Shown here: positions 12,121-25,086 of the stretch, one piece after another
Layout of the letters: each line of letters opens with the position of its first letter
Position numbering within the stretch: position 1 is the first letter of the stretch
Origin: a virus
Strand: one strand, 5' to 3'
IMG/VR virus record: IMGVR_UViG_3300047386_000057
Location: 1-28,623 of that record
DNA length: 28,623 bases
Program-made: the position numbers and the translations under genes
Notes under the pieces: model-generated
Told to the model about the DNA's origin: nothing
The model's database searches: none
The model's input: only the letters and a program-made list of their open reading frames with translations

Positions 12121-13992
12121 TTACAACTCGCAGTTGTTACCTGTACAAGCCAACTGTTGCGACCCTTCAGTCATGTCAGAGTTCTCAGAGATGTTCCAGT
12201 CGATGGTCTCAGGAAACTCCTCCTTCAACTTCTCAAACGTCTCCAGATCAATTGGTTCATAAGGAGCCTGTTGGTACGTATGCTCTGAATAAGGCAGGAA
12301 GCTTACGCCACTGATCTTGTCGAACTTGTTGTACAACCACTGACCCACCTCAAGGAACTCGTCGTCACGGTAGTAACACGTCATTGACGGCTTATGTTCA
12401 CACCAGAAGTCCTGATAGATCTCCCAAAGCTCAAGTTGCTCCATAGCACCCATCTCAGAGGCCACCACAGCCCCGTCAGGCGCCTTTATGGGGAAGGAGA
12501 ATACCTTGGTAGTGGGTGACATTACGTCGTCCTCTACGGGTATTCCTGCTGCCTCAAGGACGGTACAGAGGGGGTCTCTTGCGTCCGCTCTAACTCGTCT
12601 AATGTATTGATCTGAGTATCTAGGGTGGATACCACTAGCAGAATCAACCAACTGACTAACAGTACCGGAAGGTTTAACAGCAGTAATGGCAGCGCTAAGA
12701 TTAATACCAAGCTTGCCAGCCCATTCCGCATTAGTACTAATTGATTCCTCTTTGAGAGCCACGAGCCAATCCTTAAGTTTTTCACGATCATCCCTCCCTG
12801 ACAACACAGCGTGGTCCATGATTCCTGTTAGTGATACACCAAGAAGTGCTTCTTCTTCTGTATTCTTCTGCCACACCTTGCGGAGGTAGCGGAAGTCGGT
12901 TAGCGTAGCCTGAAGAGACCCAAGGATAGTTGCAACACGTACTTTTCGCTTGAGGTCTGACAACGTATCTCCTGCCCTGACAACAACTTCCGAAAGATTA
13001 CAGAACTGGTAGGGCCGGAGGATGATCTCTGAGCATGGATTAGTTCCAAAATCATAGGTAGCATCTCGTCGCTCGTTCTTTGCAGCTTGCTTTTGACTTG
13101 CGACTCTAGAGAACATACCTCGTTCTCCGGAGCGGGACTCGTATAAACTTTTCCACTCATTTAAAAATGCCTCAAAGTCTGGCTTCTCTGTATAACACGC
13201 TGAGTTATTCGCTAGTCCCCGCTGAGGATTATCTTGCCACCATTGTCCTGACTTGCATCGTCTAAGTCTATCGTCGGTAAGATTAGACAGACTGATGAGA
13301 GCGGACCTGCGTACACCCCCGACAACGACGATCTGTGCAATCTTACAGCAGAGATCGTGACATTCGATGGAGCTAAGTTTACGTCCAGCAGCTTCCCGAA
13401 AGACACTGACTGTGAAGTTGAACAGATCGACAAGAGGCTCTGGACCAGATGCTCTACCCCCGAAAGTCTTAAGGGTTGCCCCTGCAAGTCGTACTCCAGA
13501 CACGTCCCATTTTGGAACTTGGCCTGAATAGAGCAGGCTGATAAGTTCTCTGTAAGCCTTAGCCCATCCAATTTTGCTGTCAGCGACGTGTATAACGGTA
13601 TCTGTGGCATGGAAGTCCTCTGCTACTTCTGGTAATTTAGTTACGTACTGACGTTCCACACTGAAGCCCACACCAGTGCCGCACATAAGTACGTACATCA
13701 TCTCGTCAAATGCTTTAGGGTGGTCGATAGGCATGTAGGAGCAGTTAAACCCAGCTACATTGTCACGGTCTAAGGCCTCTCCAGCAGTCATGAGTGCTCG
13801 CATGGAAGGCATCACGTTCATGTCGTGAATGTCTGCAAAGATGCCGTTAGCTTCTTCAAGGCTCAACTTACCCTTCTCAATCCAGAAGTTTAAGTACCTG
13901 TCTATAGTTTCTTCCCAAGTCTCCCGTCGCTGTTCCTCTGGTAGGTAACGAGCGTAGCGTGACTTGTGTATGTACTGTTGATATGCGTCCAT
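12121..13992 (-). CDS. nrdJ: Class II (adenosylcobalamin-dependent) ribonucleoside triphosphate reductase, monomeric type
   Basis: 623 residues; reduces ribonucleotides to deoxyribonucleotides using a cobalamin-derived thiyl radical. Compared with Lactobacillus leichmannii RTPR (from memory: C119, N406, C408, E410, C419, C731, C736) the equivalents appear at C84, N318, C320, E322, C331, C616 and C621. The motif TNPCSEI gives N318, C320 and E322, with C331 exactly 11 residues after C320 as in RTPR. KPSGTVS (440-446) is the phosphate-binding region, and CTGNNC near the end is the redox-active pair that re-reduces the site. It is about 115 residues shorter than RTPR (739), with loss spread over the chain. 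AAGGA lies 9 nt before the ATG; the start overlaps the DUF3310 stop (TAATG). The host or its environment must supply B12. Confidence 0.95.
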   Translation of the reverse strand: MDAYQQYIHKSRYARYLPEEQRRETWEETIDRYLNFWIEKGKLSLEEANGIFADIHDMNVMPSMRALMTAGEALDRDNVAGFNCSYMPIDHPKAFDEMMYVLMCGTGVGFSVERQYVTKLPEVAEDFHATDTVIHVADSKIGWAKAYRELISLLYSGQVPKWDVSGVRLAGATLKTFGGRASGPEPLVDLFNFTVSVFREAAGRKLSSIECHDLCCKIAQIVVVGGVRRSALISLSNLTDDRLRRCKSGQWWQDNPQRGLANNSACYTEKPDFEAFLNEWKSLYESRSGERGMFSRVASQKQAAKNERRDATYDFGTNPCSEIILRPYQFCNLSEVVVRAGDTLSDLKRKVRVATILGSLQATLTDFRYLRKVWQKNTEEEALLGVSLTGIMDHAVLSGRDDREKLKDWLVALKEESISTNAEWAGKLGINLSAAITAVKPSGTVSQLVDSASGIHPRYSDQYIRRVRADARDPLCTVLEAAGIPVEDDVMSPTTKVFSFPIKAPDGAVVASEMGAMEQLELWEIYQDFWCEHKPSMTCYYRDDEFLEVGQWLYNKFDKISGVSFLPYSEHTYQQAPYEPIDLETFEKLKEEFPETIDWNISENSDMTEGSQQLACTGNNCEL

Positions 13993-14285
13993 TAATTTAG
14001 TTCCTTAATTAGTCGTTCTATGTACCAGCGACACTTCCGTAGATCTTCGATTGGTTTACCTTTGTAGTCGTAGCGCCAGAGGTATTTCAGTGCGTTACCC
14101 TTGAGATAACCGTTGAACTCGTGTTCAGGCATGGACGCTTTGATTGCTTCGATGGCTTCGATTGCTCCTTTGTTGTAGTGGTCAGGCTGGTCCACAGGGT
14201 CTGCCTGCTTCGGCTTTCTTATGGACAGGTTGTTCAGTGCTACCACTGCATCCCACTCTTCAGGAGCTGCATCATCAATACTCAT
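13992..14285 (-). CDS. DUF3310 family protein
   Basis: 97 residues. The core DQPDHYNKGAIEAIEAIKA, then GYLKGNALKYLWRY, then DLRKCRWYIERL matches the DUF3310 family, a small helical domain very common in phage replication and nucleotide clusters. Proteins with this domain are sometimes labelled nucleotide kinase, but no P-loop is visible here. AGGAGG lies 6 nt before the ATG. It overlaps the upstream 58-residue gene by 11 nt and the RNR start by one base, so it is co-translated with the RNR. A link to nucleotide metabolism is suggested by context only. Confidence 0.9.
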   Translation of the reverse strand: MSIDDAAPEEWDAVVALNNLSIRKPKQADPVDQPDHYNKGAIEAIEAIKASMPEHEFNGYLKGNALKYLWRYDYKGKPIEDLRKCRWYIERLIKELN

Positions 14286-14451
14286 TTTCTTCCTCCTCTA
14301 GCTCTTGTTCAAACACATCTAGTCTGTTGATTAACTTGTCCTCAAACCTGTCCAGTAGTTGCTCTGAGGTTATCTGTAAGGCCTCCAGTAGGTCATCCGG
14401 GTCAAAGGTTTTCAAGAGGCGTTCCTTAACTTCCTCTAGTGTTAGCGACAT
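14275..14451 (-). CDS. Small acidic helical protein, 58 residues
   Basis: Starts at ATG 14451 (SLTLEEVKERLLKTFDPDDL), with AGGAG 10 nt upstream; a TTG two codons earlier is a poorer choice. The protein is strongly acidic and helical and ends EQELEEEENEY. Its 5' end overlaps the endonuclease gene by 26 nt and its 3' end overlaps the DUF3310 gene by 11 nt, the normal spacing in this operon. Similar TFDPDDLLEAL-type proteins occur next to endonuclease genes in other marine phages as far as I recall. No function is known to me. Confidence 0.8.
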   Translation of the reverse strand: MSLTLEEVKERLLKTFDPDDLLEALQITSEQLLDRFEDKLINRLDVFEQELEEEENEY

Positions 14452-14815
14452 GGTCAATCAACTCCTGTAGTGTCTCTATAGTATACCATAAAATGTTCTC
14501 TTTGTCACACCATTCTGACATAGTCATCTTGGCCCCCTTCCGAATCTTCTTGTTCGGTTGCATGAGGACAAAGATTAACTCTTGTCCTTCGGGGAGTGAG
14601 TCCCTGATGCTCGTATATTTTTTCGTATCTCCGTCTCTGAAATATCCTTTGCATTCAACAAGAGATAAACCGCTGCTATCGACAAAATCAGGACGATAAG
14701 ACCTAGAAATAGTGTAGGGGATAGTGAAAGGCTCATAGTCAAACTCCTTTAGTACTTTGCTGACATCGTCTTCAAACGTGCTACGAAATCGTGATTTCTT
14801 GGACTTTCGGCTCAT
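14426..14815 (-). CDS. Endonuclease I (T7 gp3-like Holliday junction resolvase)
   Basis: 129 residues, close to T7 endonuclease I (149). PD-(D/E)XK core: E15 in the first helix (RSTFEDDV), D43 in YRPDF, E54 and K56 in LVECKGYF, matching T7 E20, D55, E65 and K67 in order and spacing. Beyond that come a helix (DTKKYTSIRDSL) and the strand LIFVLM. The N-terminus is basic (SRKSKKSRFRS). The enzyme cuts branched DNA, resolving replication intermediates before packaging and helping degrade host DNA. GAGG lies 6 nt before the ATG. It overlaps the exonuclease gene upstream by 35 nt. Confidence 0.88.
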   Translation of the reverse strand: MSRKSKKSRFRSTFEDDVSKVLKEFDYEPFTIPYTISRSYRPDFVDSSGLSLVECKGYFRDGDTKKYTSIRDSLPEGQELIFVLMQPNKKIRKGAKMTMSEWCDKENILWYTIETLQELIDHVANTRGS

Positions 14816-15647
14816 TATGTACCTCTGTTAAATAACGGGGACCTGAAGAATAGGCGAAGGCGCGAACGGTAGGCCAGCAAACCTTTTTGTAGGAGCAGTA
14901 GGAGCATCCGACGGCGAGTTTTTGGTTCCCACTCTTTCCATCGTCGATAGTGCCGTAGCATACGTCGGGCGGGGTTGGATGCTCCACTAGCTTTTTTACG
15001 TGTTCAATGCGCTCCTTGATGTCGTAACTTATGAGATCATAGACAGGGGCCTGAGTGTCCTCCTCGTCGTACATGAGGTACGTGAGGTGACCATTCTGCT
15101 TGTCCATTGCTAACCATCCAAATTTAGTAGCACCTTCTGAATACGCGTATCCTTTAATTTGAGCCACGTATCCAAATGGGTCGTCATAAGCCAGTGAACC
15201 GTCTTTGAATTTCCTAAACCCATAAGTTGAAGTGCTTTTAACGTCAGTAACAATACCGTTGATTTTACAGTCCATCGAACCTGTAATACCGTTAACTTCA
15301 CACTTCTTTTGTTCATCCGTTACCTCATGACCTGCAGCTCTAGTTAGAAACAGTAGCATCTCCTCAATGAGGTGACCGTAGAGGAACTTGACATAGGTAT
15401 GGCCTTGGATCTCATCGGACTTTTCTACGTCGTTGTAGACGTTCCACAGGTAGCGGTCCTCGCGCCCAATGTTAGACATGCGTAGCTTACGTCCGTCACG
15501 CTTACGTCCACCAAACTCGTTACGCATGAGGTCCTTGACGTTCTCTCCGAAGAGATCAATAGCAGACTCTAGGTCCACGCCTTCTGCTACTTCTTTCGTC
15601 TCCATCAGTTTGTAGATGTCCGACACCAGTGTGTACACGCTCTTCAT
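14781..15647 (-). CDS. PD-(D/E)XK exonuclease with C-terminal Cys cluster (RecB/Cas4-like)
   Basis: 288 residues. A RecB-type nuclease core is visible: H92 and E95 (YGHLIEEML), D126 (GSMDCKI), D135-V-K137 (VTDVKST) and the Q163...Y167 motif (QIKGYAY). Four cysteines near the C-terminus (C230, C248, C251, C257; the last three in CSYCSYKKVC) are positioned like the iron-sulfur cluster ligands of Cas4 and AddB nucleases. It occupies the place of T7 gp6 exonuclease, next to polymerase and endonuclease I, so it probably degrades host DNA and removes primers or prepares recombination ends. GAGG lies 7 nt before the ATG, 9 nt after the polymerase stop. The iron-sulfur role is inferred from cysteine spacing. 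Confidence 0.87.
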   Translation of the reverse strand: MKSVYTLVSDIYKLMETKEVAEGVDLESAIDLFGENVKDLMRNEFGGRKRDGRKLRMSNIGREDRYLWNVYNDVEKSDEIQGHTYVKFLYGHLIEEMLLFLTRAAGHEVTDEQKKCEVNGITGSMDCKINGIVTDVKSTSTYGFRKFKDGSLAYDDPFGYVAQIKGYAYSEGATKFGWLAMDKQNGHLTYLMYDEEDTQAPVYDLISYDIKERIEHVKKLVEHPTPPDVCYGTIDDGKSGNQKLAVGCSYCSYKKVCWPTVRAFAYSSGPRYLTEVHNEPKVQEITIS

Positions 15648-15656
15648 ACGTTAGCC

Positions 15657-17288
15657 TCAGTGGGTTTCTGCCCACGTTGTTCCGATTTGGAATTCTCCGT
15701 CAAGGGGACATCTGAGGTTAAAGTGAACCCCTGCCGCCTTGAGGCATTCGACTGCAAGCCAACCGTACTTCTCTGCTTGGTCTGCAACCACCTCCGATTG
15801 TACCTCATCATGTATGTTTCCTATAAAGTTGTAGTCTAGTTTCCACTGCGTTGCGTAGTCGTCCAGTATGACTAGGGCCTTCTTCATAACGATAGCCCCA
15901 GCCGCCTGCAACAACGTATTCAATGCAGCATGTTCAGATCTAACTCTAAGTCTTCGACCGTCAAGTCCTGTGAGATAGCCTCTCCCAGAAGCTCTAGCAA
16001 CGCGTTCTCGTAGACTTTCAAGAGCAGGTGTATTTGATAGAAATCGTCGCTTAAGATGTGCGCCGTCTTTTGCGCTTCCGCCAACGATAGTTCCGATCTT
16101 TGCATCTCCTGCTCCGTAGAGGAAAGCGTAGATGAAAGTCTTAGCTTGAGGTCTTGTTTCAAGCCCTGCAGCCATTTGGTTTCTGGTGTGTATGTCTTCG
16201 GTGAGGAGGACATTAGTAAACTCCTTATCGTCCATGTAATGTGCCAACATTCGTAGCTCAAGGCCACTAGCGTCGAAACCTACTAGCTTCTTCCCTTCAG
16301 GCACAGTCCAGCAGGAGCGACACTCGTGCCCATACGGGCTATAGCTTGCTGGGACTTGAGCCATGTTGGGACTCTGGTGGGTCATACGTCCAGTGACTGC
16401 GCCGTTGCTAATGACACGACCATGAACTCTACCGTCGTCCTGCAAGTGTTCTAACCATGAGTGTACCTGTGCGTATCTCTTTTGTAGCATCAAGTATTCA
16501 CTAACGGAACGAGCCTCTGGCAGGTCAATGGTGTCTAGTACAGCCTCATCAACGATGGGGTTGCCTTTCTCCGTAACTTTGTCAAAGACCACACCAAGCG
16601 TCGATAGCCTACGCGCAATCTGTTGTCTAGATCCGACATTGAAGATCTCAACTTTGTCTTTGAGACGCTTACCAGTTTTCTCAGACCACCTCTCATGTAC
16701 AATCGGAGGAAACTTCTCTTGTAGTTCCTCTTCAATTTCATTCATTCTCTCCTTAAATGTTGCTAATAATTCACGCGCCAGTTGCTGGTCCAAGACCCAC
16801 CCGTTGCGCTCCTGTTGCTGGACTATGTACTGCACCTTGTGTTCCAGCTTGATTGACTCAGGGTCAAACGCAGACATATCTCTGGTCAGACTCTTGTGCA
16901 CTGCTTCTGTGACTTCTACGTCACGCTTGCAGTACTCGATCATCGCGTCAGAGAGCATAGACCAGTCGTCGTGGTCGCCCTTTGGGAAACCCAAGGTCTC
17001 GCCCCAAGCTCTCAATGAGTGTCCACCCTGTCTGCTTGGGTCAAACAGACGTGACAACACCAGTGTGTCCACTATGCGCTCAGGGGCCACAGAGATCCCC
17101 CAGAGACGTTCTAGCACTGGGAGGTCATAACCTATCAGGTTGTGTCCACAAACGCTCACAGAGCCTTCTAGGGCCTCACAGAGGGTATCAGGGTCTAGGT
17201 GTACCGTGTTTACACCGTCCTCCCGTGTTACCACACACCAAACGATGTCGGGAGTAAGGCCGTTGGCTTCCAAGTCAAGGTAGATCAA
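15657..17288 (-). CDS. Family A DNA polymerase with 3'-5' exonuclease (T7 gp5-like), TTG start
   Basis: 543 residues. Exonuclease: D5 and E7 (LDLEANGL), D55 (HNLIGYDLPVL), Y119 and D123 (YCKRD). Polymerase: motif A D339 (VGFDASGLELR), motif B R379, K383, Y387 (RPQAKTFIYAFLYGAG), motif C H493-D494-E495. Y387 sits where T7 has Y526 and E. coli Pol I has F762. The enzyme is ~160 residues shorter than T7 gp5 (704); the thumb (~262-292) has no room for the ~75-residue thioredoxin-binding insert, so its processivity must come from elsewhere. The start is TTG (17288-17286), sharing TTGA with the helicase stop, with AGGGGA 6 nt upstream. It is supported because D5/E7 then fall exactly where T7 has them. 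Confidence 0.96.
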   Translation of the reverse strand: MIYLDLEANGLTPDIVWCVVTREDGVNTVHLDPDTLCEALEGSVSVCGHNLIGYDLPVLERLWGISVAPERIVDTLVLSRLFDPSRQGGHSLRAWGETLGFPKGDHDDWSMLSDAMIEYCKRDVEVTEAVHKSLTRDMSAFDPESIKLEHKVQYIVQQQERNGWVLDQQLARELLATFKERMNEIEEELQEKFPPIVHERWSEKTGKRLKDKVEIFNVGSRQQIARRLSTLGVVFDKVTEKGNPIVDEAVLDTIDLPEARSVSEYLMLQKRYAQVHSWLEHLQDDGRVHGRVISNGAVTGRMTHQSPNMAQVPASYSPYGHECRSCWTVPEGKKLVGFDASGLELRMLAHYMDDKEFTNVLLTEDIHTRNQMAAGLETRPQAKTFIYAFLYGAGDAKIGTIVGGSAKDGAHLKRRFLSNTPALESLRERVARASGRGYLTGLDGRRLRVRSEHAALNTLLQAAGAIVMKKALVILDDYATQWKLDYNFIGNIHDEVQSEVVADQAEKYGWLAVECLKAAGVHFNLRCPLDGEFQIGTTWAETH

Positions 17289-18892
17289 AAGTCGTCCCCT
17301 ATGTGTGGATTAGGGACTTCAGACAGTCTACCCGTAGTGCGGTCATAGGCTAACCAACAGGCAGGTCCGGTTTCTCCCGTGTACCTGTTCTTCAACACTC
17401 GAACAGTCGTGGTGTTCCTTATGTCTTCGTTGGTGTTCTGTTGGTCGCGCTCCATACCTATGACAATGTCGGACAACTGAGCGATAGCTTGACTACCCCG
17501 TAGTTCACCCAAGCTGATCTGAGCACCGTCCTCGTGTGCCTTACCTTGGGATCGACGTAGGTGTGACACGAGGAACAGACAAATGCCCGTCTCTGCCACC
17601 AAGGTCCGTAGCTTAGTCATGATCTCGTCTATGGCTTTTCTTTCGTCTCCTGACTCTTGGGAAGACACGACGATTGACAAGTGGTCCAATATGACGTACC
17701 GGCAGTCAAGCGCTTTTGCCATATAGCGAACACGGGCGAGGAGGTTATCTGCTGAAGTTGACCCCCAATGGTCGAATAGGTAGTAACGTCCTGTTCCCAG
17801 TGTGCTCTCCCAAAACGGTCGTAGTTGGTCCACAGGCGTGTCCTCTTCCAAGTGTAGAGGCCTGTTTGCCGCCACCGACATGATACCAAGCGTTGTTCGG
17901 GCCAGATCTTCCTCAAGCGCCAAGACTCCAATATTGCCTTCGCATCGGCGTAGAAGATCGTACTCAATTTCTCTGATAAATTGGGACTTGCCCATACCAC
18001 TGCCGCTAGTGATCGTGACGAGTTCATAGGGTCTATGTCCTCTGGTTATGTGATTAAGGCCTTCCCAAGGGTACGGGATGGACTTCACGTTTCTCTTTTC
18101 TACTAACTTGTCCCATGTGTCAGTGCCAGCTATGATACCGTCGGGCCTGTAGACCTTCGCATTCCACCAGTGTTGCGTAAAGTCCTTGACCCTGTTCGCC
18201 ATGAGCATGTCACCAGCGTCCTTTAGGGGTAGCTTGCAGATCTTGAGCTTGTCAGGGCTAAAGAGATCCTTGACCTGCTCTACTGCTTCTTCTCCTGCCT
18301 TGTCGTTGTCAAAGCAGAGGACTACCGTGTCGTACCCTTCGAGCCACTCTAGCTGGGCCTTGATCTCCTTGGCGGCATTACCTGCTCCTGACCGTAGAGA
18401 CACAACGTCCCACTGCTTACCTGACATCTCATAGATTGCCAAGGCGTCCAATTCGCCCTCAGTAATCGTGATATAGGTATCTCTATTGCACTGTTGTTGT
18501 CCGAAGAAGCCGACGTTGGCTACGTCCCCCATTGACATGAACCCTTTGGTTTTGACCTCGCGTACCTTTGCCGCGCATAGGTCACCAGTGGACATGTCGT
18601 AGTAGGGGTAGTAGTGTTTCTCTATTTCACCTGTGGATGTGTACTCAACGGTGACTCCGTAGCGCCCACAGGTGTCCTGAGATATGCGCCGTTGGGGTAT
18701 GCTTGAGACCACTCCCCTGAAATTAAGGGGCTTGGCCTTAGGTAATTCTGAGGTCATGCCTTGGTCTCCACCGTGAACGTGATGCTGACAGCTAAAGCAG
18801 TGTTGACCACCGTCGCTGTAGATAGCGAGAGCGTCCGAAGAATTACACTCCGGACAACTCTCGTGTCTTAGGAACTTAGAAGTCTGCGGCAT
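17285..18892 (-). CDS. Primase-helicase (T7 gp4-like)
   Basis: 535 residues (T7 gp4: 566). Zinc-binding primase part: C13, C16, C32, C35. TOPRIM catalytic part: E145 (ITEGELDAL), D195 and D197 (CFDNDKAG). Ring helicase part: Walker A GSGMGKS (297-303), Walker B ILDH (D403), H444 in SHLR (T7 H465), and R503 in KNRYTG as the arginine finger (T7 R522). All key residues are present, so it should both prime and unwind at the fork, partnering the SSB upstream and the polymerase downstream. The start overlaps the SSB gene by 17 nt with no good ribosome site, indicating coupling; the stop overlaps the polymerase start as TTGA. Confidence 0.96.
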   Translation of the reverse strand: MPQTSKFLRHESCPECNSSDALAIYSDGGQHCFSCQHHVHGGDQGMTSELPKAKPLNFRGVVSSIPQRRISQDTCGRYGVTVEYTSTGEIEKHYYPYYDMSTGDLCAAKVREVKTKGFMSMGDVANVGFFGQQQCNRDTYITITEGELDALAIYEMSGKQWDVVSLRSGAGNAAKEIKAQLEWLEGYDTVVLCFDNDKAGEEAVEQVKDLFSPDKLKICKLPLKDAGDMLMANRVKDFTQHWWNAKVYRPDGIIAGTDTWDKLVEKRNVKSIPYPWEGLNHITRGHRPYELVTITSGSGMGKSQFIREIEYDLLRRCEGNIGVLALEEDLARTTLGIMSVAANRPLHLEEDTPVDQLRPFWESTLGTGRYYLFDHWGSTSADNLLARVRYMAKALDCRYVILDHLSIVVSSQESGDERKAIDEIMTKLRTLVAETGICLFLVSHLRRSQGKAHEDGAQISLGELRGSQAIAQLSDIVIGMERDQQNTNEDIRNTTTVRVLKNRYTGETGPACWLAYDRTTGRLSEVPNPHIGDDF

Positions 18893-19253
18893 CGCCTACG
18901 GCAATCTCTGCTTCCTCTAGTACTTTGACCGCCTCAAGGTAGGTTGCTACGCCATGCACTGGGTGAGGCTGACCCAGCTTGTACTTCAGGCGGACTGTGG
19001 AGTTGTATGGGACTTCTCCGGTGTAGGGTGTGCCCTCTGCGTCAAAGACTTTGATCTCGTACTTTGATTTGAACTTGCGTTGCTTGTTGCCTTGGTAGTC
19101 CTTGATCTTGACACCGTTGGCTGCAAGCTCCGCAGCGTCGTCTTCTGACATTGTGATTGTCATGGAGTAGGCTCCAGTGGACTGACCGTTGAACACGTCA
19201 TGTGCAGTCAGGTTGCTGAAGTTAACTACGCCTTCTACTGTTGTTGCTGTCAT
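18876..19253 (-). CDS. Single-stranded DNA-binding protein (gp2.5-like)
   Basis: 125 residues, first gene after the strong promoter at 19314-19342. The sequence is beta-rich (AYSMTITMSED, KYEIKVFDAEG, VRLKYKLGQP), consistent with an OB fold, and ends in an acidic tail with terminal phenylalanine (EIAVGDAADF). That tail is the hallmark of T7 gp2.5 and bacterial SSBs, where it contacts polymerase and helicase. It is only about half the length of T7 gp2.5 (232), so it would be a minimal OB-fold version. GGAG lies 8 nt before the ATG. Context, directly ahead of primase-helicase and polymerase, strongly supports the call even though the core is too divergent to align by eye. Confidence 0.85.
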   Translation of the reverse strand: MTATTVEGVVNFSNLTAHDVFNGQSTGAYSMTITMSEDDAAELAANGVKIKDYQGNKQRKFKSKYEIKVFDAEGTPYTGEVPYNSTVRLKYKLGQPHPVHGVATYLEAVKVLEEAEIAVGDAADF

Positions 19254-19313
19254 GGAATAATCTCCGTTGGGTTGCTTTGGTTTAGTCCTGAGGATGTCTC
19301 AGAACATACTAAT

Positions 19314-19342
19314 AGTATACACTAAATGAATTTACCTGTCAA
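19314..19342 (-). promoter_or_regulatory. Sigma70-type promoter for the replication operon
   Basis: On the minus strand TTGACA (19342-19337), 17-nt spacer, TATACT (19319-19314): -35 perfect, -10 five of six. Expected start near 19307, about 53 nt before the SSB ATG. The predicted transcript opens with a small hairpin (CTGAG, 5-nt loop, CTCAG; 19288-19302) that could protect its 5' end. The -35 box lies inside the 3' end of the 50-residue membrane-protein gene, whose stop falls in the spacer. Confidence 0.85.
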
Positions 19343-19474
19343 AAAAGAATCTATGATTTGTATGCAGGTGTACATAATGAACATCATAAACCCTATACCC
19401 CCAGCAGGACAGATCACATTGGCTTTCCACGGGTTGTCCCGTATCCACTGCTCTAGCTCCTGCTCTGTCTTCAT
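19322..19474 (-). CDS. Small single-pass membrane protein, 50 residues
   Basis: Read directly from the minus strand: ATG 19474-19472, TAG 19324-19322. The start overlaps the previous stop as ATGA, strong support for a coupled real gene. The first ~20 residues are polar and acidic (MKTEQELEQWIRDNPWKANV); then a hydrophobic span of ~22 residues (GGIGFMMFIMYTCIQII) predicts one membrane helix; the tail is short and basic. Function unknown. Tiny membrane proteins in early phage operons often act on host membranes or membrane enzymes, but nothing here shows a target. Its 3' end doubles as the -35 region of the replication promoter. Confidence 0.75.
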   Translation of the reverse strand: MKTEQELEQWIRDNPWKANVICPAGGIGFMMFIMYTCIQIIDSFLTGKFI

Positions 19475-19749
19475 ATTATGTTCACATATTCATCGTTAAT
19501 GATTGTCTGCACATGGACGTACCCTTCGGGCCAGTACGTGTAGGACTCTTTAAGCGCCTTGGCTGTCCTACGTACTGAGGCCTCAAAGTGTTCGAACATC
19601 CCTAGTTCCTCTTTATAGTACCAGAAGGGGATACGTAGGACTGGCTCCGCTGGTCCATGTTCCTCGTAGTACACAATGATCTCAGCGTCGTTGCCTATAG
19701 GCCCGTCGTTACCAAAGTGTTTCGAATGCTTGTTCTGTGGTTGTTTCAC
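19471..19749 (-). CDS. Small early protein, 92 residues, unknown
   Basis: Starts at GTG 19749, sharing GTGA with the stop of the preceding 55-residue gene; AGGAGG lies 4 nt upstream. The protein has a polar start, a beta-like section (AEIIVYYEEHGPAEPVLRI), an aromatic patch (PFWYYKEELGMFEHF) and ends EYVNII. I recognise no family. Both ends are coupled to neighbours by 4-nt overlaps (GTGA upstream, ATGA downstream), so it belongs to a tight early operon. Confidence 0.8.
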   Translation of the reverse strand: MKQPQNKHSKHFGNDGPIGNDAEIIVYYEEHGPAEPVLRIPFWYYKEELGMFEHFEASVRRTAKALKESYTYWPEGYVHVQTIINDEYVNII

Positions 19750-19913
19750 TCGTCCTCCTCTAGTTCAATACCTTGGAACTCTTCGTCTATGTAGTTGTAC
19801 TCTGAATCATGAATTTCTGTCTTCAGTAGTGCCAACGCTTCGTCCTCTGTTTCTGCAGAGATACGGTAGACGTGCTCTATCGTTTCAATGGTCTTGATAC
19901 AGTACCTATTCAC
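19746..19913 (-). CDS. Small acidic early protein, 55 residues (beta-alpha fold)
   Basis: Frame found between two listed genes: GTG 19913-19911, TGA 19748-19746, with GGAGG 7 nt before the start and 4-nt GTGA overlaps at both ends. Product begins MNRYCIKTIETIEHVYRISA, continues ETEDEALALLKTEI and ends in an acidic ELEEDE tail. The strand, then acidic residues, then -EA--L helix pattern is the same as in the 58-residue gene at 21178-21354 (VYEVKVEAESREQAEEIF), so the two may be paralogues. Function unknown. Confidence 0.78.
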   Translation of the reverse strand: MNRYCIKTIETIEHVYRISAETEDEALALLKTEIHDSEYNYIDEEFQGIELEEDE

Positions 19914-20161
19914 TGTTCACCCTCCGGTAGTTCGTCACTGGCTAGGAACAAGATTTTGTCCAGTGTGTTCCTAGACATCACCACGTTGCCACGGTCGTCC
20001 AGAGACAACTCTAGGTCCTTACGTAGGACAAAGGGTATGCCACCCCAAGGGTCCCGCCTCATGATGTCATTGGTCACTGTACGGGCTTGTGTGTAGCCGA
20101 AGCAGTAGACGGAGTAGTCACCCCCGTCGACCACATAAATACTCTTTTCGTCTATAAACAT
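19910..20161 (-). CDS. Small early protein, 83 residues, unknown
   Basis: ATG 20161 with AGGAG 7 nt upstream; first gene after a 72-nt gap carrying two palindromes and AT-rich sequence, so it may head a sub-operon. The sequence looks like a compact alpha/beta protein (SIYVVDGGDYSVYCFGYTQA, then TLDKILFLASDELPEGEQ). The NDIMRRDPWGGIPFVLRKDL centre is distinctive, but I cannot tie it to a family. Its stop is coupled (GTGA) to the 55-residue gene. Confidence 0.8.
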   Translation of the reverse strand: MFIDEKSIYVVDGGDYSVYCFGYTQARTVTNDIMRRDPWGGIPFVLRKDLELSLDDRGNVVMSRNTLDKILFLASDELPEGEQ

Positions 20162-20173
20162 AAGTTTACTCCT

Positions 20174-20196
20174 GTAGTACTACTGTAGTTAACTAC
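20174..20196. promoter_or_regulatory. Two adjacent palindromes, candidate operator
   Basis: GTAGTACTAC (20174-20183) and GTAGTTAACTAC (20185-20196), both perfect palindromes with the same GTAG...CTAC half-sites, separated by one base, lie 13 nt before the ATG of the 83-residue gene. Two TATACT hexamers (20212-20217 and 20226-20231, minus strand) lie just upstream but without a good -35. The layout fits a protein-binding site or overlapping hairpins in the leader. No binding protein is identified. Confidence 0.45.
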
Positions 20197-20233
20197 TACT
20201 GCTTCTACTTTAGTATATATACCTAAGTATACC

Positions 20234-20425
20234 TTAGTAGAGGGTATCATAGTTTTCGTCTTCTGTAAATATCTCATATTGGTAATATTCCATAGTTTCT
20301 GAGTCTACTCCCGCGCTAGCACTAGCAGAAAGGCAAATGCCGCAAATATCAAGAAAGTTACCATGTGCGTCCTTTTTAGTTAATTCTGATTCCTCTAGTA
20401 TTCGATTACAGGCCTTACAACGCAT
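20234..20425 (-). CDS. Small zinc-ribbon protein, 63 residues
   Basis: Start chosen at ATG 20425 (MRCKACNRILEESEL), which has GGAGGA 8-9 nt upstream; a longer reading would need a TTG. Two CxxC pairs (C3, C6 and C28, C31 in MRCKAC and DICGICLS) form a four-cysteine zinc-binding knuckle. The remainder is polar and acidic (ETMEYYQYEIFTEDENYDTLY). Small ribbons of this kind are frequent early phage proteins that bind host RNA polymerase or nucleic acid, but no partner is indicated here. It overlaps the 74-residue gene by 11 nt. Confidence 0.78.
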   Translation of the reverse strand: MRCKACNRILEESELTKKDAHGNFLDICGICLSASASAGVDSETMEYYQYEIFTEDENYDTLY

Positions 20426-20639
20426 CTCTCCAGTCCTCCCCGTGTATTTCAATCATCATACGCTCTAGATGTCTAGTGTTGAGCCTAGAGTATTTACGTA
20501 GGCAGTCCAAGCGAAACATCTCAGTCTCAAACTCGACTATGTGGTCCACCATTGCTTGCTCCTCTGGGTCTCTGGAAGGCTCTGGGATGTCCCCAGAGTC
20601 CTCCCCGTAGTAACCCCTCTCGTATTCCTCAAACGTCAT
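20415..20639 (-). CDS. Small acidic early protein, 74 residues, unknown
   Basis: ATG 20639 preceded by AGGGGG 6 nt upstream. The N-terminal half is very acidic with aromatic residues (MTFEEYERGYYGEDSGDI); the C-terminal half is helical (EFETEMFRLDCLRKYSRLN). It overlaps the upstream 53-residue gene by 11 nt and the downstream zinc ribbon by 11 nt. No family recognised. Acidic, helical small proteins in this position can mimic DNA, but this is only one possibility. Confidence 0.78.
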   Translation of the reverse strand: MTFEEYERGYYGEDSGDIPEPSRDPEEQAMVDHIVEFETEMFRLDCLRKYSRLNTRHLERMMIEIHGEDWRDAL

Positions 20640-20790
20640 TGTAAGCCCCCTGCATACGTTGTATAAGCTCGTCGATGATCTTCTGCTCCTCCTCCTTCCA
20701 CTCCTCTATATCGTCAAGGCCCTCGTAGTCCTCAGCCTCAAGTGTGTCGTAGTAGTAGTCGTGCGCTTCTTCCCATGATTCTCTAGGCAT
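20629..20790 (-). CDS. Small highly acidic early protein, 53 residues
   Basis: Read directly from the minus strand: ATG 20790-20788, TGA 20631-20629; AGGAG lies 9 nt before the ATG within the sequence GGAGACATAGACG that also ends the preceding gene. The protein (MPRESWEEAHDYYYDTLEAE, then DIEEWKEEEQKIIDELIQRM) is strongly acidic and helical. It overlaps the 43-residue membrane gene upstream and the 74-residue gene downstream. Unknown function. Confidence 0.72.
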   Translation of the reverse strand: MPRESWEEAHDYYYDTLEAEDYEGLDDIEEWKEEEQKIIDELIQRMQGAYNDV

Positions 20791-20914
20791 CGTCTATGTC
20801 TCCTGTGTTGGCTTTAAGTGTTGCACTCACTGTTAGCACTAAGGCGGCAAGGGCCACGATAGGCAACAGGAAAGGCACCATAAGCAGTCCTAATCCTCCC
20901 ACAATGTACCTCAT
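20783..20914 (-). CDS. Small membrane protein, 43 residues
   Basis: ATG 20914-20912 with AGGAG 10 nt upstream, in the same GGAGACATAGACGA context as the next gene. A longer reading starting from GTG 21052 exists in this frame but would override two better small genes. The product MRYIVGGLGLLMVPFLLPIV, then ALAALVLTVSATLKANTGDIDDA, has a ~28-residue hydrophobic span with a proline in the middle, enough for one membrane helix or a hairpin, and an acidic end. The start overlaps the 33-residue gene stop as ATGA. Function unknown; a holin- or pore-like role cannot be excluded. Confidence 0.72.
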   Translation of the reverse strand: MRYIVGGLGLLMVPFLLPIVALAALVLTVSATLKANTGDIDDA

Positions 20915-21012
20915 TCGTCTATGTCTCCTTTTATGTATAACCAGAGTGTGATTATACCAGATGCCGCTAGTAATAACAATACGTCCCAAAATGGTTGCCA
21001 GCTCTCGAACAT
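20911..21012 (-). CDS. Tiny membrane protein, 33 residues
   Basis: Read directly from the minus strand: ATG 21012-21010, TGA 20913-20911. AGGAGG lies 10 nt upstream. The protein starts MFESWQPFWDVLLLLAASGI, has one clear membrane helix (VLLLLAASGIITLWLYI) and ends KGDIDE. Its stop overlaps the ATG of the 43-residue membrane gene (ATGA), so two consecutive coupled genes encode tiny membrane proteins, both ending in a GDID motif. Unknown function. Confidence 0.68.
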   Translation of the reverse strand: MFESWQPFWDVLLLLAASGIITLWLYIKGDIDE

Positions 21013-21014
21013 CT

Positions 21015-21173
21015 CTAGTCATCCTCCTCAAACAGTCCCAAGTCCTCAGCACAGTAAATACAGACGTGCTGATCCACGGCTGTAGGCTGTGCCTCCATCG
21101 TGTCTAGGTGTAGCACGTAGCTCTCATTTCTGTACCACTCGCCACACTCAGCGCATTCGTATACCTCGCCCAT
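21015..21173 (-). CDS. Small zinc-ribbon protein, 52 residues
   Basis: Read directly from the minus strand: ATG 21173-21171, TAG 21017-21015, AGGAGG 9 nt upstream. Two CxxC pairs (C7-AE-C10 in YECAECGEW and C38-IY-C41 in VCIYCAED) form a zinc ribbon with a ~27-residue connecting part; the tail is acidic (FEEDD). It lies 4 nt after the 58-residue gene and 2 nt before the 33-residue gene. A second ribbon protein sits at 20234-20425. Function unknown. Confidence 0.75.
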   Translation of the reverse strand: MGEVYECAECGEWYRNESYVLHLDTMEAQPTAVDQHVCIYCAEDLGLFEEDD

Positions 21174-21177
21174 GCTT

Positions 21178-21354
21178 CTAGTCCTCCTGTCGTAGCGTGA
21201 GGTAATCCGCTGGCTCTATGTCCAGCGTATGAACCCGCAGTAGTTCCTCCCAGTCTCCGAAGTTGTCGAATATTTCCTCCGCCTGTTCTCTGGACTCTGC
21301 TTCAACTTTGACCTCGTATACTTTGGTCATGATTACTTGATATGTACGCTTCAT
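21178..21354 (-). CDS. Small early protein, 58 residues (beta-alpha-beta fold)
   Basis: Start set at ATG 21354 (MKRTYQVIMTKVYEVKVEAE) because GGAGG lies 8 nt upstream; an in-frame ATG twelve codons earlier lies within the preceding gene and is less likely. Pattern: strand, strand, acidic turn, helix (SREQAEEIFDNF), then strand. It resembles the 55-residue product at 19746-19913 and could be its paralogue. No family name or function known to me. Confidence 0.76.
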   Translation of the reverse strand: MKRTYQVIMTKVYEVKVEAESREQAEEIFDNFGDWEELLRVHTLDIEPADYLTLRQED

Positions 21355-21356
21355 CT

Positions 21357-21581
21357 CTAGCGCCTCCCTTGTCGTAGCTTGGACCACCATCGTATGACTC
21401 TCCAGAATCTCCGGTGGTTCTTATCAGTGTCTAGGAATCCTAGCTTGTCTCTCAACCCACACAGAAGCCGTGAGTAGTTGTTAATGGTGTACTCTGGGTA
21501 CATGAAGCCCTTGCGTCCGTCGTAGATGTCCCAGACGTGGTCTTCGTGGTTGTACCAGATTGTGTATCGTCCAAAGTTCAT
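21357..21581 (-). CDS. Small basic/aromatic early protein, 74 residues
   Basis: Start at ATG 21581, which shares ATGA with the stop of the preceding gene; the longer open frame upstream lies inside that gene. N-terminus MNFGRYTIWYNHEDHVWDIY is beta-like with many aromatics and His; YPEYTINNYSRLLCGLRDKL looks helical; the end is strongly basic with Trp (RRFWRVIRWWSKLRQGRR). The basic tail could bind nucleic acid or membrane. Family unknown. Confidence 0.76.
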   Translation of the reverse strand: MNFGRYTIWYNHEDHVWDIYDGRKGFMYPEYTINNYSRLLCGLRDKLGFLDTDKNHRRFWRVIRWWSKLRQGRR

Positions 21582-21817
21582 GCTGTAGCCCTCGCGTTTA
21601 TGCTGTCCTGTGTCAGTGTGTCGCAGTAGTCCGCACCTCTGGACTTCAACCACTGGTTAATGTGCTTCGACGTGGTGACGCTCCAGAAGTCCTCTGTCTT
21701 GAAGTAGTTACCCTCTGCCGTCTGCAGTGCAACGGGTGTCTCGTAGCTGAAAAACACTGTAGTGCCGTCGGTGAATTCAACCTCTGTCTTGTTACTGCCT
21801 AGTTGTCGTAGTTGCAT
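21578..21817 (-). CDS. Small phage protein, 79 residues (DUF8033-like)
   Basis: ATG 21817 with GGAGGG 9 nt upstream. Sequence MQLRQLGSNKTEVEFTDGTT, then VFFSYETPVALQ, then YFKTEDFWSVTTSKHINQWL matches from memory a widespread small phage family (I believe named DUF8033), whose signature is FFSY-TPVA and SVTTS-HIN-WL. Mostly beta strands. No function is known. It is preceded by a promoter-like pair (21863-21891). Confidence 0.8.
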   Translation of the reverse strand: MQLRQLGSNKTEVEFTDGTTVFFSYETPVALQTAEGNYFKTEDFWSVTTSKHINQWLKSRGADYCDTLTQDSINARATA

Positions 21818-21862
21818 AGTCTTAAGCCCTCCAGTGGCTCGTGTGTTGACTCACTGCTGGAC

Positions 21863-21891
21863 ACTCTAGTGAATGCCCAACGATTAGTCAA
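21863..21891 (-). promoter_or_regulatory. Probable sigma70-type promoter for the small early genes
   Basis: Minus strand TTGACT (21891-21886), 17-nt spacer, TAGAGT (21868-21863): -35 five of six, -10 four of six. It lies in the 79-nt gap between the 109- and 79-residue genes, so expected transcripts begin near 21856, about 39 nt before the ATG. It is weaker than the other promoters in the window. The AGGAGG beside the -35 has no usable start codon and may be chance. Confidence 0.55.
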
Positions 21892-21896
21892 CCTCC

Positions 21897-22226
21897 TTAT
21901 GCCGCGTATTCAAACTGGTCGAAGTATTCGTCAGGCCTTGAGTTTATACATAGATCAACGTCGATGCCAACCGATCTCAACTCCTTACCGATCTCTTGCA
22001 TCTCTCGAATAATGTAGTTGCGTCTCTTCATCAACTTAACGTGCTCTGGTAGGTCCTGACCGTAACCACTGTTCTGCCACTCGTCGCTAGCGTAGTACTG
22101 TGACAGCTCCTCTAGAATCTCTGTCCAATCGCTGTAGTAAATGGCGTACATCTCAACAGCGGTAGACAATGTGCGGTGGCTGTTCTCAAGTGTCTCGTGG
22201 AGACCGTAGTTAACTTGCTTAGTCAT
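21897..22226 (-). CDS. Helical early protein, 109 residues, first minus-strand gene
   Basis: Starts at ATG 22226 (MTKQVNYGLHETLENSHRTL), or five codons earlier at ATG 22241 (MRIII). Neither has a good ribosome site. The frame stays open to 22400, but that part has no phage-like composition, so I treat it as leader. The protein looks helical with many Tyr and charged residues (WTEILEELSQYYASDEW, then RNYIIREMQEIGKELRSVGI) and ends DEYFDQFEYAA. No family recognised. Its start codon lies within a Fur-box-like palindrome, which would make its expression sensitive to iron if the host regulator binds. Confidence 0.72.
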   Translation of the reverse strand: MTKQVNYGLHETLENSHRTLSTAVEMYAIYYSDWTEILEELSQYYASDEWQNSGYGQDLPEHVKLMKRRNYIIREMQEIGKELRSVGIDVDLCINSRPDEYFDQFEYAA

Positions 22227-22242
22227 GATAATGATTCTCATT
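22224..22242. promoter_or_regulatory. Fur-box-like palindrome over the first early-gene start
   Basis: On the minus strand the 19-mer AATGAGAATCATTATCATG matches the Vibrio-type Fur consensus AATGANAATNATTNTCATT at every specified position but the last. Against the E. coli 19-bp consensus (GATAATGATAATCATTATC), in a shifted alignment, it matches 15 of 19. It overlaps both candidate start codons of the 109-residue gene. Only the sequence match is seen; binding is inference. Confidence 0.5.
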
Positions 22243-22401
22243 TGGGGTGGCTTCGGTCCCCGTCTCGCCATGTGTGTAGTAAACCAGAAACCCAGTTGAG
22301 AAACAAGGGTAAATATTTCACACAAATAGACTATTGACCACAGCCCATGATGTATGCTAATCGCGTGTGCGCGTGTAATAAATAGCTCGCGTAGCAACAA
22401 T

Positions 22402-22493
22402 CATGCCAACCTATGGGGACCAACATAAGCCCACACACTTGTCAACTCATGCAAATCCCATGCCAAGTTACCCCATGCAAGGACCATGCCAAC
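22402..22493 (+). repeat. Iteron-like CATGCCAA/CATGCAA repeats
   Basis: CATGCCAA at 22402, 22459 and 22485; CATGCAA at 22448 and 22474. The last four form two copies of an arrangement CATGCAA, 4 nt, CATGCCAA, with starts 11 nt apart, repeated at 26 nt. Eleven-nt spacing puts the sites on one face of the helix, as in iterons or arrays bound by an initiator or repressor. Confidence 0.6.
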
Positions 22494-22709
22494 TCTAGTC
22501 GCTACCATAGGCCGCGCCCTGTGTCAACTTTTGTTGAAACCCGCGTAGAAACTAGGGGCGGGGGAGGGGTTGACATGTGTTAGACTTTTGTAGTAGCTAC
22601 CTAGGCACAAAATAGGGTAAAATTAGGAAAATTACCCCTAAATTAAACTCGTGTAAGCCGTTGATTATACTCGTGTTTGTACTTCTACTGCTTTTACCTC
22701 TAAAATAGC

Positions 22710-22738
22710 TTGACTTTTATGTAAACTTATGGTATACT
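22710..22738 (+). promoter_or_regulatory. Sigma70-type promoter for the packaging operon
   Basis: TTGACT (22710-22715), 17-nt spacer, TATACT (22733-22738); five of six in each box. Expected start near 22745, about 22 nt before the ATG of the AT-hook gene. The spacer ends TATGG, as does the spacer of the promoter at 28046-28074. Confidence 0.82.
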
Positions 22739-22766: not shown

Positions 22767-23153
22767 ATGACCGACGTTGTTAAAAAAAGAGGTCGTGGCA
22801 GACCCCGGAAGTCAGAAGTAGCCGCTGTAAAGCCCGGTAACAAGGGTGTAGTAGGCCGACCAAAGGGTGACGCAGCGATAATTAACGAGTACAAAGCTCG
22901 TATGCTGGCTAGTCCTAAGTCACGTAAGGTCCTAGAGACAATATTTGATGCTGCTTTGGACCATGACCATAAAAATCAAGCTGCTGCTTGGAAACTTGTG
23001 ATGGACCGTATACTACCAGTGGGTGCCTTTGAGAAGGACGTAGTAAAAGATGCTGGTCGCAACGCTATACAAATTAATATTTCTGGTGTTGGTGCTGTTG
23101 ACGTGGGCACTCCTGAAATCATCGAAGGAGAAGTAGTAGAAGATGACTCTTAA
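22767..23153 (+). CDS. AT-hook DNA-binding protein, candidate small terminase subunit
   Basis: 128 residues. Two AT-hook-like motifs in the basic N-terminus: RGRGRPRKS (~8-16) and VGRPKG (~29-34), which would grip the minor groove of AT-rich DNA. The middle is helical (IINEYKARMLASPKSRKVLE, then NQAAAWKLVMDRILP); the C-terminus is beta-like and acidic (INISGVGAVDVG ... VVEDDS). It is the first gene after the packaging promoter, upstream of endolysin and large terminase; small terminase subunits often sit here and recognise the packaging site. ATG 22767 is used because the ATG at 22762 hits a stop two codons on; AGGGA is 11 nt upstream. The small-terminase role is inferred. Confidence 0.8.
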   Translation: MTDVVKKRGRGRPRKSEVAAVKPGNKGVVGRPKGDAAIINEYKARMLASPKSRKVLETIFDAALDHDHKNQAAAWKLVMDRILPVGAFEKDVVKDAGRNAIQINISGVGAVDVGTPEIIEGEVVEDDS

Positions 23154-23493: not shown

Positions 23494-23846
23494 TGTTATA
23501 CACAAAGAACAAGAACCTGACAGACACCAGTACGCAAACAATTGTAACTATTCCTGACGGTTACGTTGCACACTGGAACATGGCGTTTGTAGCTAACCTA
23601 CATAACTCTACTAACAGTATTACGTTGTTTGTAGACAAACCTAGTCCAACAGAAGATGTGTATATTTACAATGGTACTAACATATCGTCAAAAGAAAACC
23701 TATTGCTTGACGGTAATGCAGTGTTTGTTTTACAGCCGGGGGACATTATTAAGGCGTCTAGTGGTAGTGCGGGGAACGTAGAAGTAGTAGTTACGTTTGA
23801 TTTAATAGAAGCATCACCGGTGTTTAATAATTTTAATGGATCTTAA
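23493..23846 (+). CDS. Small beta-rich structural-type protein, 117 residues
   Basis: Start taken at ATG 23493 (MLYTKNKNLTDTST), which shares one base with the previous stop (TAATG); the longer reading needs a TTG. Strand-rich throughout (TIVTIPDGYVAHWNMAFVAN, NSITLFVDKPS, AVFVLQPGDIIKASS, VEVVVTFDLIEA), like a jelly-roll or immunoglobulin-like phage decoration or fibre domain. It lies between endolysin and terminase. No function recognised; a virion role is inferred. Confidence 0.75.
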   Translation: MLYTKNKNLTDTSTQTIVTIPDGYVAHWNMAFVANLHNSTNSITLFVDKPSPTEDVYIYNGTNISSKENLLLDGNAVFVLQPGDIIKASSGSAGNVEVVVTFDLIEASPVFNNFNGS

Positions 23847-25086
23847 TATAGAACTACTGCCTTGGCAGCAAGATGTTTGGGCAGACGACACAAGATTTAA
23901 AATAGTAGCTGCTGGTCGACGTACGGGTAAGTCTAGGTTAGCAGCGTGGATGTTAATAGTAAACGCACTACAGGCGGACAGAGGCCATGTATTTTACGTC
24001 GCACCTACTCAGGGACAAGCCAGAGACATCATGTGGCAAACCCTTTTGGAACTGGGACATCCTGTTATTAGTGGTAGTCACATTAATAATTTGCAAATTA
24101 AGCTGGTCAACGGAGCCACAATCAGTCTCAAAGGTGCAGACAGACCAGAGACTATGCGAGGTGTCAGCCTCAAGTTTCTAGTCATGGACGAATACGCTGA
24201 CATGAAACCAGAGGTATTCGAGCAGATACTTAGACCCGCCTTGGCGGACCAAAAGGGCTGTGCGATGTTCATTGGGACACCAATGGGAAGAAACCATTTT
24301 TACGAACTTTACAAATATGCGGACTTAGATGATGACCCTACGTACAAAGCTTGGCACTTTACGAGCTATGATAACCCGTTGTTGGACCCCAGTGAAATCG
24401 ACATTGCTAAACGCTCTATGTCTTCTTATGCGTTTCGTCAGGAGTTTATGGCGTCGTTTGAAGCCCGTGGGTCAGAAATGTTTAAGGAAGACTGGGTTAA
24501 GTTTAGTGAAGATGAGCCGGAAGTAGGAGATTACTACATTGCTGTTGACTTGGCAGGCTTTGAAGAAGTCAACAAGAAAAAGACTAAGAACTCCAAGCTT
24601 GACGACACAGCCATCGCAGTGGTTAAGGTCAATGAGCATGGTTGGTATGTTGACAATATCATATACGGTAGATGGAGTCTTGACGAAACAGCAGCTAAGA
24701 TATTTCAGGCCGTTAGAGATTACCGTCCCGTGTCGGTTGGAATCGAAAGAGGTATTGCTAAACAGGCTGTAATGTCTCCGCTTGTTGACATGCAGAAAAG
24801 ATATGGTATGTTCTTCAGAGTAGAAGAACTTACCCACGGTAACAAAAAGAAGACCGACAGAGTAATGTGGGCACTACAAGGTCGTTTCGAAAACGGCTAC
24901 ATTACATTAAACAAAGGTGAATGGAATTCTAGATTTTTAGATCAGTTGTTCCAATTCCCTGATCCTTTGACGCATGACGACTTGATAGACGCTTTGGCGT
25001 ATATTGACCAACTGGCAAATGTAGCGTACGACTACGACTACGAAATTGAGGACCACGAAATCTTAGACGTGGTAGCAGGATATTAA
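23836..25086 (+). CDS. terL: Terminase large subunit
   Basis: 416 residues, the ATP-driven DNA-packaging motor and headful/cos nuclease. ATPase: Walker A AGRRTGKS (26-33), Walker B FLVMDEYAD with D118-E119, coupling motif IGTP (146-149). RNase H-like nuclease: D238 (AVDLAG), E304 (VGIERG), D385 in HDDLIDALAY. All motor and nuclease residues are present. It overlaps the upstream gene by 11 nt and has no clear ribosome site. T7 gp19 is 586 residues, so this is a compact type. The portal follows at 25088. Confidence 0.96.
   Translation: MDLNIELLPWQQDVWADDTRFKIVAAGRRTGKSRLAAWMLIVNALQADRGHVFYVAPTQGQARDIMWQTLLELGHPVISGSHINNLQIKLVNGATISLKGADRPETMRGVSLKFLVMDEYADMKPEVFEQILRPALADQKGCAMFIGTPMGRNHFYELYKYADLDDDPTYKAWHFTSYDNPLLDPSEIDIAKRSMSSYAFRQEFMASFEARGSEMFKEDWVKFSEDEPEVGDYYIAVDLAGFEEVNKKKTKNSKLDDTAIAVVKVNEHGWYVDNIIYGRWSLDETAAKIFQAVRDYRPVSVGIERGIAKQAVMSPLVDMQKRYGMFFRVEELTHGNKKKTDRVMWALQGRFENGYITLNKGEWNSRFLDQLFQFPDPLTHDDLIDALAYIDQLANVAYDYDYEIEDHEILDVVAGY

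Follow-up and report, generated by a model that had tools for sequence, protein, structure and literature searches.

The stretch of DNA analysed here, referred to as the window, comprises 28,623 nucleotides of a viral record (IMGVR_UViG_3300047386_000057). It includes an intergenic region between divergent transcription units, with leftward genes from 22226 and rightward genes from 22767, in which the initial annotation had correctly placed a short array of repeats. The leftward operon consists of T7-like replication genes with small early ORFs at its head, and the array is followed on the right by terS, a gene for a peptidase-type lysis protein, and terL. The AT-rich DNA described beside the array does exist and lies on its right, where the 150 bp from 22618 form the second least stable stretch of that length in the window. 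From left to right, the features of the locus are:

12121–22226, minus strand: early and replication genes (RNR, endonuclease, Cas4-like exonuclease, DNA polymerase, primase/helicase, SSB and small early ORFs)
22393–22409, minus strand: sigma-54-type site 1, TTGGCATG-ATTG-TTGCT, leftward and outside the hypervariable box; 14 of 17 specified consensus positions; its -12 half was overlooked initially
22416–22446, no strand assigned: left conserved element GGGACCAACATAAGCCCACACACTTGTCAAC, which borders the variable box and recurs upstream of otherwise unrelated boxes
22447–22554, no strand assigned: hypervariable box, with two sigma-54-type sites here and DnaA, LexA, Fur or other arrays in relatives
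22448–22466, minus strand: sigma-54-type site 2, TTGGCATG-GGAT-TTGCATG, leftward, immediately right of the left conserved element; 14 of 17 positions
22474–22492, minus strand: sigma-54-type site 3, TTGGCATG-GTCC-TTGCATG, leftward; 15 of 17 positions; kept in relatives
22555–22569, plus strand: conserved G-run GGGGCGGGGGAGGGG, next to boxes clade-wide with small variation (boxes were extracted with a pattern that included a G-run)
22590–22638, plus strand: conserved core GTAGTAGCTACCTAGGCACAAAATAGGGTAAAATTAGGAAAATTACCCC, at the start of the low-stability region (alignment, viral-contig pattern search and duplex stability)
22710–22738, plus strand: sigma-70-type promoter TTGACT-N17-TATACT with TG extension, upstream of terS; 10 of 12 in a consensus scan; kept in relatives
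22767–23153, plus strand: terS, terminase small subunit-like protein with an N-terminal AT hook (AT_hook, Pfam), adjoining TerL
23836–25086, plus strand: terL, terminase large subunit, the query for finding relatives

The conserved core (CGGGGGAGGGG followed by A-rich sequence) is situated to the right of the hypervariable box and upstream of terS. The adjacent G-run resembles CSB II of human mitochondria, which we take to be a site where a T7-like replisome is primed from an R-loop; the likeness is offered as a lead only. At the left-hand end of the region, TGATAATGATTCTCA (22226–22240) overlaps the region around the start codon of the first leftward gene; it agrees at 13 of 14 positions with what we presume to be the 7-1-7 Fur box, and may instead be a ribosome-binding region. 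Similar palindromes, GAGAATCATTCTC, occur left of the box in L220, L250, L257 and L311.

All five repeat copies reported by the initial annotation are real. CATGCCAA starts at 22402, 22459 and 22485, with no further copy on either strand of the window, and CATGCAA starts at 22448 and 22474, the two additional isolated copies elsewhere in the window amounting to about chance for a 7-mer. The phasing is likewise as described, with half-repeats spaced 11 nt inside each pair and 26 nt from pair to pair. The 'two identical pairs' are identical in their repeat halves but not in their 4-nt spacers (ATCC versus GGAC); on the minus strand both read TTGGCATG-N4-TTGCATG. The lone CATGCCAA at 22402 turns out to be the right half of a bipartite site (22393–22409) whose partner is AGCAA rather than TGCAA, and which on the minus strand reads TTGGCATG-N4-TTGCT. 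The interpretation as five separate iterons was rejected, because the bipartite 11-nt unit accounts for all copies and exposes a sixth half-site. Taken alone, three occurrences of CATGCCAA against 0.65 expected in the window are mildly unusual (three or more in 2 of 100 shuffles). The composite pattern TGGCAY-N5-TTGCW has three matches in the window, all at the array and all leftward, with 0.06 expected in Markov-1 random sequence. As in a host-regulator cluster, the three sites share one intergenic region and none lies elsewhere in the window.

In sequence and spacing, the three sites are matches to the sigma-54 (RpoN) -24/-12 consensus, and as putative promoters they point toward the leftward replication operon. 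The consensus of 186 sigma-54-dependent promoters is mrNrYTGGCACG-4bp-TTGCWNNw (PMC2725144); the window sites fit its core, with GG near -24, GC near -12 and the spacing TGGCAYG-N4-TTGCW, but have T where C is commoner, and agree with 14 to 15 of the 17 specified positions. Chance yields a score of this size elsewhere in the 28.6 kb, and it is not significant for a single site by itself, so that the weight of the sigma-54 case falls on the exact core and on what the relatives show. Among 58 non-redundant relatives, 159 of 212 pairs of TGGCA and TTGC half-sites that point leftward, and 48 of 53 that point rightward, have a spacing of exactly 11 nt. A frequency table for the clade, anchored on TGGCA only, recovers Y (C/T), G, a variable N4, TTGC (86–93%) and W (A 68%, T 23%), and the upstream flanks (A, A/G, A, G, T) fit the m-r-N-r-Y of the consensus. 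That the spacer varies while both halves persist argues for selection on a protein site in two parts whose geometry is that of sigma-54. The earlier proposal of master-regulator binding would thus be a good fit, as the motif is that of sigma-54 and relatives carry apparent sites of other host regulators in the same box; the motif, whose conservation at this locus had been suggested as a check, is kept in dozens of relatives. The sites are multiple and often tandem, which is unusual for sigma-54 promoters and might be taken as a sign of another regulator with a motif that resembles them by chance. However, the match extends to the core positions and the exact spacing, to both degenerate positions (Y and W) and to four positions in the flanks, and such a coincidence seems very unlikely.

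The 150 non-redundant relatives came from searches with TerL and with the core, one seed search using the sigma-54 motif itself; more distant TerL relatives were inspected for gene order only. Neither a DNA-level search of isolate phages nor a scan with one pattern built on a long fixed core gave a match. An assignment of the host from bacterial genomes was discarded as not trustworthy, as the three TerL hits were MAG contigs of discordant phyla (Sphingobacteriales, Verrucomicrobiales and Planctomycetaceae).

The core is common to the relatives; the box to its left is not. Among 40 motif patterns applied to 107 boxes, sigma-54 (163 sites versus 0.13 expected), DnaA (78 versus 0.23), LexA (12 versus 0.02) and Fur boxes (6 versus 0) stand out, and nearly all remaining patterns are at about chance or below, with a weaker excess for an OxyR-like motif (7 versus 0.6). 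These four had first been spotted by eye, and one of the seed searches was itself based on the sigma-54 motif; the test therefore gauges the strength of the signals rather than amounting to an unbiased discovery. For every motif other than sigma-54, including DnaA, LexA and Fur, the pattern is what we assume the consensus to be.

Several relatives have the box filled by arrays beyond these four types. Repeats of 11–12 nt like TTGCATTCTGC, phased as response-regulator half-sites, are present in L022, L030, L049, L080 and L247, tandem palindromes TTGGCAY-N5-RTGCCA in L073, L225 and L230, 22-nt repeats GTTCTATTTTGGTACTGAGTAG followed by DnaA boxes in L241, L259 and L280, and repeats like AACAAACAAGCGTGACTGTTTAAAACAA in L223, L232, L242, L244 and L276. 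A pair of adjacent LexA boxes (CTGT-N8-ACAG) lying 18 bp apart occupies the box next to the G-run in L227, L249, L257 and L273; we take this type of LexA box to suggest gamma- or betaproteobacterial hosts for the members that carry it.

The contents of the box differ even between close relatives. L018 (DnaA) and L019 (sigma-54) are 97.6% identical over 1.7 kb right of the box and have different arrays, as do L009 and L010 at 96.6%, and L227 (LexA) and L250 (Fur) are 95.4% identical there (spans compared 1.1–1.7 kb). The right flanks of L240 and L260 are 98.5% identical, with four sigma-54-type units in both directions in L240 and none in L260. On a 135-tip FastTree tree, with recombination ignored, parsimony requires at least 34 changes of array type, or 14 when sigma-54 presence is counted alone. 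Sigma-54 and DnaA arrays do not strictly exclude each other; there is only a tendency to do so (Fisher p = 0.05), and mixed arrays exist. This exchange at one spot suggests that close relatives swap host-regulator sites and that these phages repeatedly exchange the host signal to which they would respond.

The factor that binds the array would more likely come from the host than from the phage, since no left-arm gene tracks the array, TerS is conserved and the replication genes are common to different array types. A comparison of 54 left arms, up to about 6.4 kb long, revealed no gene family that is general among sigma-54-type phages and also confined to them, and no initiator gene that tracks the repeat type. 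TerS retains 109–128 identical residues of 129–131 across array types, and the window protein is 91–95% identical to those of the DnaA-type relatives L009, L012, L013 and L033 and 89% identical to that of L029. RpoN would be the host factor whose consensus fits. No phage-encoded sigma-54 activator was found in 18 long phage records, so that activation would depend wholly on the host.

The conservation of TerS also bears on DNA packaging. The array adjoins terS, and one could imagine it as a pac or cos site recognised by the small terminase subunit, the more so as a contig end lies within 700 bp of the core in five of the 19 listed contigs of at least 25 kb (L123, L221, L222, L226 and L278). 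Yet TerS hardly differs between the window and DnaA-type relatives with unrelated arrays, and contig ends are scattered on both sides of the core, as assembly breaks at a variable repeat would give; the five ends are probably breaks of this kind at the variable box. A packaging function of the array is very improbable. Binding of the array by TerS was rejected on the grounds of TerS conservation across array types, and fixed genome ends at the core because of the scatter. The conserved core itself could still be a packaging site.

Sigma-54-type arrays hold two to nine sites. In the window's sub-group the units are strongly biased leftward, and in another sub-group leftward and rightward units alternate. 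Arrays of up to nine units, their double orientation in one sub-group and the variety of unrelated host factors are what would be expected of a sponge that titrates RpoN, DnaA, LexA or Fur from host promoters or oriC while the phage multiplies, and multicopy titration of such host factors is established for plasmids. Set against this are the leftward bias, the fixed place of the arrays next to the core, whereas a sponge could sit anywhere, and the presence of two LexA or two to three Fur sites only, which are few relative to abundant proteins; titration is improbable on these grounds.

At least two DnaA boxes are present in the boxes of 29 of the 150 relatives, mostly in one orientation (95 versus 18), head to tail and helically phased with spacings often of 11, 12, 22 or 33 nt, and the last one ends 2–11 bp from the G-run in 20 of 27. 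The window contains no DnaA box beside its low-stability region or elsewhere; it has lost, or never had, the DnaA part. The distant relatives L166, L201, L410 and L453 have a leftward sigma-54 unit immediately inside the left element, at the position of site 2, and DnaA boxes that adjoin the G-run, a layout suggestive of an origin next to a leftward promoter. An outlying unit placed much as site 1 is retained in some DnaA-array relatives (L024, L029, L040 and L041).

The suggestion of a replication origin thus gains indirect support from oriC-like consensus DnaA arrays at the same place in many relatives, beside the G-run and the A-rich stretch. The cumulative GC skew, put forward as a check, has an interior minimum at the array, but skew follows gene direction and the result is confounded. 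A role of the locus as a replication origin is plausible, and the G-run and the A-rich core probably constitute the origin and early control region.

The origin could in principle make iterons of the repeats themselves, bound by a phage or host initiator that melts the A-rich core, with DnaA doing the same job in relatives. Direct repeats on one helical face next to a low-stability region agree with this idea, as do the phased DnaA arrays ending close to the G-run. The motif is nevertheless probably not an initiator iteron, because the replication genes and TerS are common to different array types: the array is replaced wholesale among phages with homologous primase/helicase and SSB. No initiator gene was recognised, no left-arm gene follows the motif type, and in its flanks and its pattern of degeneracy the motif agrees with sigma-54 sites. 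This part of the initial annotation is therefore disfavoured, and initiator iterons are an unlikely explanation.

The explanation that we favour, with moderate confidence, is that three sigma-54 promoter-type sites directed toward the early and replication operon are the form that a swappable host-regulator array takes in this phage, next to the probable origin and early control region. Host RpoN-RNA polymerase would bind the array as a stable closed complex, and an active host AAA+ enhancer-binding protein would then trigger leftward early transcription. This firing, together with the sigma-70 promoter that points rightward at 22710, could underwind the core in between and help to open the origin. 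Infection would thereby be tied to the state of the host, such as its nitrogen status, motility or pili. The best leftward sigma-70-type promoter in the window scores 7.3, below the 8.0 of shuffles. Counting against the promoter reading is the number of sites, two to nine, which exceeds what a promoter needs. Several members of the alternating-unit sub-group, with sigma-54 arrays running both ways (L064, L106, L121 and L173), have a strong leftward sigma-70 promoter and would not need the sigma-54 units as promoters. As neither LexA nor Fur starts transcription, the function common to all arrays may be binding as such. A bolder and doubtful extension is that RpoN-RNA polymerase and its AAA+ activator replace DnaA as the opener of the phage origin, in a plug-in arrangement whose trigger (DnaA, RpoN, LexA, Fur or others) is exchanged by recombination between near-identical phages.

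A widespread clade of uncultured marine phages appears to keep a fixed socket in which host-regulator sites are exchanged while the neighbouring genes hardly change. If so, the choice of host signal would be a rapidly evolving trait, readable from metagenomes, and RpoN, DnaA and Fur would join LexA, Spo0A and CtrA among the regulators known to be used in this way. The locus offers a concrete place for asking whether host regulators gate phage replication.

Parts of this arrangement have counterparts in well-studied systems. The sites resemble sigma-54 -24/-12 promoters (PMC2725144) in sequence, 4-bp spacer, GG-GC distance and flank preferences, and differ in that the phage genomes have two to nine closely spaced copies. 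Like bacterial oriC, the relatives have consensus DnaA boxes that share one orientation and are helically phased, with a GC cluster and an A-rich stretch of low stability beside them, whereas the window has no DnaA box and these phages encode their own primase/helicase and polymerase. The lambda origin, with its transcription-stimulated initiation (PMC3985674), likewise interleaves origin and promoters in a compact phage control region, but relies on its own phage-encoded initiator, O, and on different promoters (pR and pO). A sigma-54-type phage array, or a fixed socket that exchanges host-regulator sites, was not found in the open-access literature searched. Phage clusters are already known for CtrA, and LexA and Spo0A as single systems, at least as cited in PMC9437464: the Spo0A sites of Phi29 and the LexA sites of GIL01 control lytic development and also place host-regulator sites on a phage genome, with, as far as that account goes, one regulator per phage and no exchangeable array. 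The closest parallel is provided by the CtrA-site clusters of alphaproteobacterial phages, described under the term 'lytic deferment' (Mascolo et al. 2022, PMC9437464), in a study that saw no such clustering for DnaA. In both cases dense sites of a host master regulator are gathered in one intergenic region, for CtrA sometimes between divergent gene blocks, and the CtrA clusters likewise have several independent origins and are read as host-state sensing. The CtrA work includes experimental binding data, whereas the present array is a finding from DNA sequence; the regulator differs, and here near-identical phages appear to exchange one regulator for another at a single fixed locus.
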